From: Patescibacteria group bacterium | GTDB taxonomy: Bacteria; Patescibacteriota; Microgenomatia; UBA1406; GWC2-37-13 | Length of the DNA: 64,000 nt | Reading direction: 5' to 3' | Assembly (NCBI GenBank): GCA_026415975.1 | Contig: JAOAFZ010000001.1 | Span: 186,001 to 250,000, forward strand | Shown here: in pieces, positions 50,217-54,015 of the stretch | How the letters are laid out: each line of letters starts with the position of its first letter | Numbering within the stretch: position 1 is the stretch's first letter | Notes under the pieces: generated by a model | Seen by the model: only the letters and a program-made list of their open reading frames with translations | What the model was told of the DNA's origin: nothing | The model's database searches: none | Position numbers and translations under genes: made by a program

Positions 50217-50654
50217 ATGTTGAACAAACTCAGTCCTATCGGGACTAAAAAAAAGAAACGGCTTGGTAGAGGTATCGGGTCCGGTCGTGGTTCTAAATCC
50301 GGTCGCGGTACAACACGGCATCAGAATGCGCGCGAGAAGATCCCACTTTGGTTTGAAGGCGGTCAAAACAGGCTCGTCAAACGATTTCCCTTGCTTAGAG
50401 GAAAAGGAAAAAACAAATCGGTAAAGCAGGTAATTGAGGTTCGAAGCGGGTCTTTGAATATCTTTAACGATGGAGATGTTGTAAACGCAGCTACACTGAT
50501 GGCACAGGGTTTAATTGGTAAAAATGACGGCAAAAAAGATATAAAAATTATTCTGAACGGCGCAGTAGAGAAAAAATTAACAGTTGAGGTACGTACTACA
50601 AAAGGCGCGAAAGATTCCATAGAGAAAATTGGTGGTTCAGTCACAATTTCATGA
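50217..50654 (+). CDS. rplO: 50S ribosomal protein L15
   Basis: Late-assembly large-subunit protein (145 aa) with the Gly-rich N-terminal [20 protein letters not shown] and the C-terminal L18e/L15 domain. It follows rpsE by 4 nt with no L30 gene between, as usual in CPR. Its stop overlaps the secY start (ATGA). Confidence 0.96.
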
Positions 50655-51940
50655 AACGGATTTCACAAAAGCTGAAGTTGTTCTGGAATGACAAGACGCT
50701 CCGTGCAAAGTTTCTCTTTACAATAGGAATTTTTCTCGTATATCGTATCTTTGCCTTCCTTCCTGTGCCGGCGGTAGATCTGCAACAGCTCCGCGCACTC
50801 TTTTCCCAAAGTCAGTTTCTTTCACTCCTCGATATCTTCTCCGGAGGCACATTGGTCAATTTTTCTGTAATGGCGCTTGGATTAAGCCCCTACATAAATG
50901 CTTCGATCATAATGCAGATGCTAACAATTATTATTCCACAACTTGAAGCCTTACAAAAGGAGGGTCAGTACGGGAGATTTAAGATTAATCAATATACCCG
51001 GTTCCTTACACTCCCACTTACCCTTTTGCAGGGTGTTGGAATTTATGTGCTCCTCCGTAATCAAAATATCCTTGAAAACCTGTCATTCCTGGAGTTTGTC
51101 TCATTTATCCTCACTCTCCTTGCCGGAACATATATTCTCATGTGGTTTGGCGAACTGATCTCTGAGAGAGGGCTCGGAAACGGCATTTCTCTGATTATCT
51201 TTGCCGGTATTGTCGCCCAGTTTCCAGTTATTGCCGGGCGCACGTTTACGACCGTCGACCAGGAAACAATCATAAACGTGGGAATATTTATGATTCTGAG
51301 TCTGCTTATGATCGCTGGAGTAGTATACATTAACCAGGCGGTGAGAAAAATACCGGTTTATTATGCGAAGCGAATCAAGGGAAACAAACAGATTTCATCC
51401 GGAGGGGCGACCTACCTGCCCCTGAAGTTGAATCAGGCTGGGGTTATTCCGATTATCTTTGCGGTATCGTTCGTATTATTTCCACAGCTTATCGGAAACT
51501 ATCTGGTTTTCTCTCCCAATCAGACTATTCAAGGCATAGCACAATGGCTTGTGGTGGCATTTAACCCCAACTCGGTGCTTTATAATATCGTGTATTTTGG
51601 ACTGGTAGTAGCATTCACGTTCTTTTATACTACGGTCGTGTTCAACCCGAAAAAAATCTCCGAGGATATCCAGAAGCATGGAGGATTTATACCCGGAGTG
51701 CGGCCAGGCAGCGAAACGCGTGAGTATCTGACTCGGGTAGTATATCGGATTACCGCAGTGGGTGCGGTATTTTTGGGTGCAATTGCGGTTTCACCGGTGG
51801 TGCTCTCAGCATTCACCGGAATCTCCAATCTGGTAATCGGAGGGACTGGAATTTTGATAGTGGTATCTGTTATACTAGAGACTTTCAAATCTATAGAAGC
51901 ACAGCTTGTAATGAAGAGTTACGATCGGTATACACGTTAA
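50651..51940 (+). CDS. secY: Preprotein translocase subunit SecY
   Basis: Channel subunit of the Sec translocon (429 aa, ten helices). [20 protein letters not shown], the plug region with [20 protein letters not shown], the [18 protein letters not shown] stretch and the C5 loop with [18 protein letters not shown] are all conserved. Coupled to rplO by a 4-nt overlap. Its partners SecD and SecF are encoded at 9896-12126. Confidence 0.98.
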
Positions 51941-51954
51941 GTTATATTTTCCCT

Positions 51955-52131
51955 ATGGCAAAAAAAAGTTCACGCATCAAAGTGGGTCTGGTCTGTAAGG
52001 AAACGGGTCGCTTAAACTATGTAACAACCATGAATAAGCTCAACCTGGAAACCTTCCAAAAGGTTTTTATGCGCTACTGTCCCTTGCTGATGAAGCACAC
52101 ACCTCACGTGGTCAAAAAAAAATTGGACTAA
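51955..52131 (+). CDS. rpmG: 50S ribosomal protein L33, zinc-free variant
   Basis: A 58-aa gene between secY and adk. The product begins MAKKSSRIKVGLVCKETGRL and continues NYVTTMNKLNLETF and YCPLLMKHTPHVVKKK, aligning with L33 over its length (TG-x-x-NYVTT-x-NK core and the C-terminal KHTPHVV segment). The two C-x2-C zinc pairs of the C+ form are reduced to single cysteines (CKET, CPLL), so zinc binding is not expected. It starts 14 nt after secY and ends 3 nt before adk. This place in the spc operon is unusual for L33. Confidence 0.85.
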   Translation: MAKKSSRIKVGLVCKETGRLNYVTTMNKLNLETFQKVFMRYCPLLMKHTPHVVKKKLD

Positions 52132-52134
52132 TTC

Positions 52135-53259
52135 ATGAAAATCGTTCTCATCGGTATCCAGGGAGCCGGAAAGTCGACACAGGGAAATCTGCTTTCAAAG
52201 CAGTTGAATCTCCCATATCTCTCAACAGGACATATTTTCCGGGAGATTGCCAAGGAAAAAACACAGTTAGGCCGCTACGTCAAAGAACTGATTAACTCAG
52301 GCGCGCTCATTCCGGACGAAAAGACAATTGAGATTGTAAATAGCTATCTGTCGCGTCCAGAATATCGGAATGGTTACATTCTCGATGGTTTTCCCCGTAC
52401 CTTGAAACAGGCAAAGGAATTTATAAACAATGTCGATCGTGTTGTACACATTGACATTGATGACAAAGAGGCTCTCTGGCGTCTTGCGTATCGCAAGGAT
52501 GACCGCGATGATGACAATATACAGGCCATACGAAAACGTATAGAACTCTTCCACAAATACACCAAGCCGGTTCTTGATTACTATGCAGCACAGGGAAAGC
52601 TTGTCGTGGTGAATGGTATGCGGGAAATCAAGGAGATTAATGAAGAAATTCTCAAATCGCTGGGGTTCAGTCTTGAAAAAAATCATGCAGTTTCATGGAA
52701 ACAGAACAAAAAGACAATCATTGCTCTGGTAGGCATGCCTGGTTCGGGCAAGTCAGAGGCTGCAAAGTTTTTTCGGGATAAAGGAATCGATGTCATCTCT
52801 TTCTCGAATGTAATAAATGATTACATCGATGCAAAAGGTCTGAAGCATACAGAACAGACTCACAGCAAGCTCAGGCGTGAGTTTCGCGAAAAATACGGTC
52901 CTGCAGCACTTGCTGTGCTGAATAAAGATCTCCTCGAAAAAAAGCTGCAGGAAAAAAACATCGTCTGTATAGAAGGCATGCGTTCTTGGGAAGAATACAC
53001 ATTTATTAAAAAAGAATTTCCCCATGTCCGCATTTTTATTGTGGCACTCTATGCCGATAAAAAGCTTCGGCATAAGCGAATCTCAATGCGAAAGCACAGA
53101 TCCGGTTTGTACGGTGAAGAACGGGATGTGAACGAATTGATCGAGACGAATATGGGTCCCACGATTGCATATTCTGACTTCCTTATCAAAAATAATTATT
53201 CCCTGGATGATCTTAACGATAAACTTGAAGAAGTATATCGGGCAATCTACTACACTTGA
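52135..53259 (+). CDS. adk: Adenylate kinase fused to a UPF0200-type P-loop kinase domain
   Basis: A 374-aa two-domain protein. Residues 1-182 are adenylate kinase: GIQGAGKST (7-15), the STGHIFREI AMP-binding helix, DGFPRT (84-89), and a short LID (RKDDRDDD) without zinc cysteines. After a short linker, residues 193-374 begin with a second P-loop, LVGMPGSGKSEAA (198-210), and continue FREKYGPAALAVL and CIEGMRSWEEYTFIKKEF, matching the UPF0200 family known mainly from archaea, a dephospho-CoA-kinase-like group. The first half makes ADP from AMP and ATP; the activity of the second half is unknown. Located between rpmG and map in the standard adk slot. Confidence 0.9.
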   Translation: MKIVLIGIQGAGKSTQGNLLSKQLNLPYLSTGHIFREIAKEKTQLGRYVKELINSGALIPDEKTIEIVNSYLSRPEYRNGYILDGFPRTLKQAKEFINNVDRVVHIDIDDKEALWRLAYRKDDRDDDNIQAIRKRIELFHKYTKPVLDYYAAQGKLVVVNGMREIKEINEEILKSLGFSLEKNHAVSWKQNKKTIIALVGMPGSGKSEAAKFFRDKGIDVISFSNVINDYIDAKGLKHTEQTHSKLRREFREKYGPAALAVLNKDLLEKKLQEKNIVCIEGMRSWEEYTFIKKEFPHVRIFIVALYADKKLRHKRISMRKHRSGLYGEERDVNELIETNMGPTIAYSDFLIKNNYSLDDLNDKLEEVYRAIYYT

Positions 53260-53262
53260 CCG

Positions 53263-54015
53263 ATGGTACACCTAAAGACACGCGAAGAAATCGAAATCAT
53301 GAAGACAGGGGGAGCCATTCTTGTAAAGTCTGTTAATGAGCTTCTACCGAAGATCAAGCCCGGTATGTCAACAAAGGAGGTTGATGCACTAGCTGAACAG
53401 TTAATTAAAGCAAACGGTGGGGAAATATCCTTTAAAACGGTGCCGGGGTTTAACTGGACGACCTGTCTTCCGGTGAATGAGCAGGTTGTTCATACACAGC
53501 CTTCAGACAGGATTCTTCAGGAAGGAGATGTGCTTACAGTTGATATCGGGGTTCTCTATAAGGGCTTTCATACCGATTATGCAACTACAATTGTCGTTGG
53601 AAAATCAAAAGATGCTGCTGTAACCCGGTTTCTTGATGCTGGAAGTGCAGCTCTTGAAAACGCAATCTCAGTTGCCGGCTCAGCAAGCTACATTGGTGAA
53701 ATTTCAAGGTCAATAGAGAACGATATTTACGGCTCCGGCTATTTTATCCTGCACGAACTGACCGGACATGGTATCGGAAAAGAACTTCATGAGGCTCCAT
53801 ATGTTCCCGGAATTCTGGACCGGCCCGTTGAGAAGACGTATAAAATCGAAGATGGACTTGTAATTGCGATAGAAGTAATATATTCTATCGGAACTGAACG
53901 AATAGCCCACGAAAAAGATGACAAATGGTCAATCGTTACGGCAGACGGGAGCTTATCAGCCTGTTTCGAGAAGACTGTTGCGTTTTTCGATAAAAAGATG
54001 TTTATTTTGACATAG
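53263..54015 (+). CDS. map: Methionine aminopeptidase, type I
   Basis: Removes the initiator methionine (250 aa, pita-bread fold). The metal ligands are present: Asp in [17 protein letters not shown] (two), His in [12 protein letters not shown], Glu in [10 protein letters not shown] and the last Glu in CFEKTVAFF. It follows adk by 3 nt and precedes infA, which has its own -10 box. Confidence 0.96.

Follow-up and report, generated by a model that had tools for sequence, protein, structure and literature searches.

An adenylate kinase fused to a UPF0200-type P-loop kinase, a candidate (d)CMP kinase, in the spc operon of Roizmanbacteria-like Microgenomatia

A gene in a ribosomal operon of Microgenomatia encodes, in a single polypeptide, an adenylate kinase (Adk) followed by a second P-loop kinase domain of the UPF0200 type (here called D2). 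The gene is probably a bifunctional nucleoside-monophosphate (NMP) kinase, in which the AMP kinase is joined to a (d)CMP kinase that is non-orthologous to the canonical cytidylate kinase, Cmk. For D2 we infer catalysis and substrate from homology, active-site conservation, exchange of genes in an operon slot and gene neighbourhood. The strongest functional clue is the alternation of D2 with cmk in one operon slot, between adk and map. The window, i.e., the whole stretch of 64,000 nucleotides that was analysed, comes from a genome whose family is Roizmanbacteria-like Microgenomatia; this placement rests on the nearest named relatives.

The fused gene and its operon

The open reading frame at 52135..53259 (+) starts with ATG and encodes 374 amino acids plus a stop codon, with no internal stops. 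The surrounding genes follow the order of an spc-type operon, ...rplO-secY-bL33-[Adk::D2]-map-infA-rpsM-rpsK-rpsD-rpoA, in agreement with an initial annotation of the window that had placed the gene in the spc operon. The same annotation had described two complete P-loops in one frame, and both are found, GIQGAGKST at residues 7-15 and GMPGSGKS at residues 200-207; the frame is real and intact, and it encodes two complete P-loop kinase domains. The features of the gene and its neighbours are as follows.

50651..51940 (+), secY, upstream neighbour (synteny in relatives)
51955..52131 (+), rpmG (bL33), between secY and the fusion (read directly from the sequence)
52135..53259 (+), fusion coding sequence Adk::D2 (single open reading frame; full length conserved in relatives)
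52135..52665 (+), adenylate kinase domain, residues 1-177, with a short LID, R120-KDD-R124 (PF00406, NF001381, PDB adenylate kinases, fold match)
52153..52179 (+), P-loop 1, GIQGAGKST, residues 7-15 (sequence; conservation)
52666..52710 (+), linker of residues 178-192, a beta hairpin in the AlphaFold prediction for the whole fusion
52711..53256 (+), D2, UPF0200-type P-loop kinase domain, residues 193-374 (phmmer, profile against PDB, AF2, Foldseek)
52732..52755 (+), P-loop 2, GMPGSGKS, residues 200-207 (sequence; conservation)
52972..52998 (+), EGMRSWEEY motif, residues 280-288, counterpart of DGVRS in SSO1041 (alignment, conservation)
53068..53127 (+), arginine-rich LID of D2, residues 312-331, with R312, R315, R319, R330 and D331 (conserved in type I and SSO1041)
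53263..54015 (+), map, for methionine aminopeptidase; next gene downstream, at the far end of the adk-[D2 or cmk]-map slot (synteny)

A single fused frame of about 370-413 amino acids is found in the 40 genomes sampled from the window's family (one frame is shorter and one reaches the contig end), and six contigs named as Candidatus Roizmanbacteria encode the full-length protein at 57-63% identity. The possibility that a frameshift had joined two separate genes, raised in the initial annotation, was tested and does not hold; the single frame is kept across relatives, and its conservation in the family and in the Roizmanbacteria contigs rules out a frameshift, an assembly join or a chance join. 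In two sister families the fused frame is present in four of the five D2-bearing genomes. Genome G160 has it split, and family f18 has an independent Adk-D2 fusion (G329). In other members of the class, D2 is a gene of its own, directly between adk and map, so the fusion arose from two neighbouring genes. In one genome a second D2, as a stand-alone gene, stands in tandem behind the fused adk::D2 (G349, L049:3985-5688).

The adenylate kinase domain

The N-terminal half matches short-LID bacterial adenylate kinases over the whole domain. PF00406 aligns to residues 5-154 at 1.6e-37 (129 bits against a gathering threshold of 26.8; model positions 1-150 of 151), and residues 1-177 align to positions 1-186 of NF001381 with 176 bits, 11 bits below the curated cut-off of 187. 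Adenylate kinases in the PDB are matched as well, with 8pvw as a fold match (TMt 0.78). In an alignment of 37 fusions, the P-loop residues G7, G10, G12, K13 and T15 are invariant, as are R36, R88, R120, R124 and R135; the catalytic P-loop and arginines are thus kept. Although this half has all catalytic-type residues of the short-LID enzymes, its LID is shorter still, as minimal as first described, and a second kinase follows at the C-terminus. A search of the window's genome with the whole protein gave one match, which makes this half the only adenylate kinase detected in the genome. The eukaryotic adenylate kinase AK5 also carries several NMP-kinase domains in tandem in one chain, but these are copies of Adk, whereas the two domains of the fusion belong to different families.

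The UPF0200-type domain

D2 belongs with UPF0200 by sequence, profile and fold. Among solved structures, residues 190-374 match SSO1041 (3e-15, phmmer), which the PDB describes both as 'UPF0200 protein' and as 'Adenylate kinase related protein'; dephospho-CoA kinase is the next family, at 0.06. A profile of 34 relatives searched against the PDB gives 122 bits to SSO1041 and 41 bits to the best dephospho-CoA kinase. Because a fold search with the whole fusion is dominated by the first half and returned only adenylate kinases, D2 was modelled alone (AF2; pLDDT 93.1, pTM 0.88). Foldseek places the SSO1041 structures 3lw7 and 3h0k at ranks 1-4 (TMt 0.82-0.88, best 3lw7), followed by adenylate and UMP-CMP kinases (approximately 0.62-0.72) and dephospho-CoA kinases (approximately 0.5-0.68). 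The proposed Adk and UPF0200 fusion is therefore confirmed, and no ordinary bacterial NMP kinase matches the second half better than UPF0200 does. The family, also known as arCOG01045, occurs in nearly all archaea and has two solved structures and no assigned reaction (PMC6650551); a literature search for UPF0200 by name was without result. Its earlier description as mostly archaeal is incomplete, since 118 of the 286 Patescibacteria genomes that were sampled also have UPF0200-like domains.

With SSO1041 (3lw7, 3h0k) and archaeal members such as TK1334, D2 has in common a G-x-P-G-S-G-K P-loop, a DG/EG-x-R-S motif, an arginine-containing LID and an AD-x-x-I-x-N motif. D2 domains fall into two types. 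Type I, which includes the D2 of the window, typically carries the motif [DE]G-x-[RY]-S-[WFY]-x-E-[YF], and the arginine of DGxRS is replaced by tyrosine in most stand-alone members; type II, a paralogue, has a longer LID and a motif of the DGIRN type. In a tree, type II lies apart from type I, at whose base SSO1041 forms a long branch; the survey described below separates the two types in part by a score threshold. In type I the P-loop, the arginines and the AD/N positions show little or no variation, and SSO1041 has them as well; G200, G203, G205 and K206 do not vary in any of 94 type I domains. By comparison with the archaeal family, type I has its own nearly invariant R247 (glycine in most type II domains, alanine in SSO1041) and SWEEY-type motif, is bacterial, and is fused to or located beside adk in most of the class. 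D2 is presumably catalytic; residues of catalytic type do not vary in either half of the fusion.

Above cut-off, only generic P-loop models of Pfam match residues 190-374. The guanylate kinase model PF00625 gives no match to D2, and the Cmk model PF02224 gives none to D2 alone at E <= 1. Since the PF02224 match is absent, D2 may work like Cmk without being a member of that family; the two are different branches of P-loop kinases.

The initial annotation had offered CoA metabolism as one possible role. CoaE is a related P-loop kinase, with a fold shared by D2 and a weak profile similarity to it, and 79 of 80 genomes have no CoaE; D2 might on these grounds be a dephospho-CoA kinase. Such a role is extremely improbable. 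The PF01121 (CoaE) score of D2 is 19.6 bits, below the gathering threshold of 27, the fold match is poorer than that to SSO1041, and all fusion partners and most of the recognisable neighbours of D2 are nucleotide enzymes. Moreover, dephospho-CoA kinase is unlikely because the archaeal arCOG01045 members TK1334 and TK2192 were purified and had no dephospho-CoA kinase activity (PMC6650551).

Alternation with Cmk in one operon slot

The distribution of type I D2 and of canonical Cmk (PF02224) was surveyed in 373 Microgenomatia genomes. Type I D2 is present in 93 and Cmk in 84, and no genome has both, compared with approximately 21 expected (p = 1e-12, Fisher, phylogeny ignored). When the window's order is left out, 48 genomes have type I D2, 84 have Cmk and again none has both (p = 3e-7, Fisher, phylogeny ignored). 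In 46 of the type I genomes, all candidates from the first look were scored. The only Cmk-like matches among type I genomes are divergent frames of 267-300 amino acids (81-96 bits) in five genomes of genus g73, and these are also found in Cmk-bearing sisters; one of them, a protein of 285 amino acids (G048, L113:4747-5604), is of a kind that occurs beside both D2-bearing and Cmk-bearing slots. Type II and Cmk are not mutually exclusive (both in 16 genomes; p 0.75), and the thymidylate kinase gene Tmk is present in 78 of 80 genomes whatever their D2 or Cmk state. Neither type I D2 nor Cmk is found in 196 of the 373 genomes; these genomes may do without the activity or obtain it from other enzymes.

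In families f4, f9, f12 and f18, genomes with Cmk carry cmk exactly in the position of D2, in the order secY-adk-cmk-map; the cmk genes examined in f5 and f10 are outside the slot. For 61 genomes chosen for bearing D2 or Cmk, a tree was built from SecY, Map and ribosomal proteins; it requires at least 9 switches between the two genes on well-supported branches and 13 on the best tree. Switches also occur inside genera: g73 has D2 in G048, G064, G112, G189 and G217 and cmk in G085 and G133, and g189 has D2 in G259 and cmk in G206 and G232. A sign test on the tree gives p 0.004, on rows chosen for one gene or the other; because of this preselection, weight is placed on the switch count and on the class-wide zero overlap instead.

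Since one operon slot serves both genes, part of the exclusion could reflect exchange of cassettes. Against cassette exchange as the whole explanation, three genomes hold two genes in the slot (adk-typeII-cmk-map in G225, G127 and G095), and the exclusion persists where D2 is located elsewhere. In a further genome, type II is fused to Cmk within the slot (G213, L045:4041-5282).

The adk gene varies too. In f9, it alternates between two types within one genus (for example, L118 and L124 versus L120, L123 and L099), which have about 60% and 29-31% identity to the window's Adk, and the adk-map segment thus looks like a hot spot for exchange of NMP kinases. Two loci (L138 in G166 and L141 in G266) have adk, a second Adk-like gene, cmk and map, so that the spc operon there carries three consecutive genes for NMP kinases.

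Neighbours of D2 outside the slot

Type I D2 is also found outside the operon, in f19, in f30 and in other classes of Patescibacteria. At 16 of approximately 33 such loci, most of which show 1.5 kb on each side, it adjoins genes for dCMP deaminase and/or dUTPase; by our estimate, a given gene would be this close by chance at well under 1% of loci. One gene (G529, L071:1501-3060) is an in-frame triple fusion, D2::dCMP deaminase::dUTPase, of 520 amino acids. Type II domains are fused to dCMP deaminase at three loci (L046, L047 and L053) and, in reverse order, to an Adk-like domain in G210 (L044:4012-5163). The nucleotide enzymes that partner or adjoin D2 act particularly on deoxycytidylate and deoxyuridylate. 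The earlier interpretation of the gene is supported for the fusion, the minimal LID, the spc operon and the link to (d)NMP metabolism, and unsupported for the CoA option.

These loci also bear on a different kind of role. AK6/Fap7 is an NMP-kinase-like protein with a ribosomal or regulatory role and a fold related to that of D2, and D2 sits among ribosomal genes, so D2 might be an ATPase of this sort whose function is reflected in its ribosomal operon. We consider this quite improbable: adk and cmk themselves sit in the ribosomal operon, D2 outside the operon adjoins dCMP deaminase and dUTPase, and type I D2 shows exclusion with Cmk.

Nucleotide kinases of the genome and alternative substrates

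Candidate-phyla bacteria have been described without gmk and cmk, which left CMP and GMP phosphorylation unexplained (PMC4508563, PMC9166423); the two genes are puzzlingly rare in Parcubacteria (PMC4508563), and a published survey reported Microgenomatia without guanylate kinase (PMC9166423). A search of the window's genome found an archaeal-type UMP kinase (180 bits) and Tmk, and no Cmk, CoaE or bacterial PyrH; for Gmk it gave just a 31-bit Gmk-like match inside a frame of 680 amino acids, which is not convincing. Because the archaeal-type UMP kinase is present even though PyrH is absent, D2 was rejected as a stand-in for a missing UMP kinase. The archaeal-type UMP kinase itself shares one frame of 440-445 amino acids with a SAM-dependent methyltransferase domain, and the fused gene lies directly upstream of a RecF-like gene (L159:491-1828, which is contig C2 83090-84427 of the window's genome, and L162:498-1820); frames of similar length are found in G005, G030, G131, G197 and G010.

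The missing guanylate kinase of Microgenomatia invites the proposal that D2 is their GMP kinase and perhaps that of archaea, in which arCOG01045 is nearly universal (PMC6650551) and whose GMP kinase gene had yet to be identified in PMC4177761. There is little probability of this. In the 286 Patescibacteria genomes, 52 have both a D2-like domain and Gmk, 66 a D2-like domain only, 46 Gmk only and 122 neither, a positive association (odds ratio 2.1, p 0.004); Gmk is also present in approximately 10 of the 25 type I genomes outside Microgenomatia. Because D2-like domains and Gmk co-occur above expectation, a GMP-kinase role for D2 is unsupported.

The main rival to a (d)CMP kinase is a broad-specificity (d)NMP kinase that acts on CMP, UMP, GMP and dNMPs and fills several gaps, replacement of Cmk being one consequence. 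It would suit a genome without a convincing Gmk, Cmk or bacterial PyrH; in addition, three D2-like members match PF21448, the phage deoxynucleotide monophosphate kinase, weakly (1e-4), and SSO1041 was crystallised with AMP (3lw7), the sole ligand among the UPF0200 crystal structures examined. Against it, the archaeal-type UMP kinase is present, Tmk is nearly universal, D2-like domains often coexist with Gmk, and exclusion is seen with Cmk. A broad kinase is a serious but rather unlikely reading, and a (d)CMP kinase is preferred.

Proposed function and implications

As a bifunctional enzyme of this preferred kind, the fusion would provide in its N-terminal half the only adenylate kinase of the cell (ATP + AMP = 2 ADP), and D2 would most likely act as a CMP/dCMP kinase (ATP + (d)CMP -> ADP + (d)CDP). 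D2 would thereby replace the unrelated canonical Cmk, absent from the window's lineage and carried in the same adk-map slot by sister genomes, with the same reaction. The neighbouring adk and D2 genes of a secY-adk-D2-map operon have fused, and the fusion may keep ADP from the D2 reaction near Adk.

We know of no UPF0200 protein that phosphorylates CMP. For the family as a whole, the chances are about even that UPF0200 type I is an unrecognised, non-orthologous family of (d)CMP kinases which, within a single operon slot of Microgenomatia, has traded places with Cmk no fewer than nine times, and which became fused to Adk in the Roizmanbacteria-like lineage. Archaea have their own Cmk, and PF02224 matches are present in two archaeal controls; the archaeal UPF0200 proteins thus need not have the function of type I. 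If the proposal is true, these relatives, present in nearly all archaea, would be nucleoside-monophosphate kinases too. Through the exchange with cmk in the operon slot and the dCMP deaminase and dUTPase neighbours, an orphan kinase family gains a specific, testable prediction.
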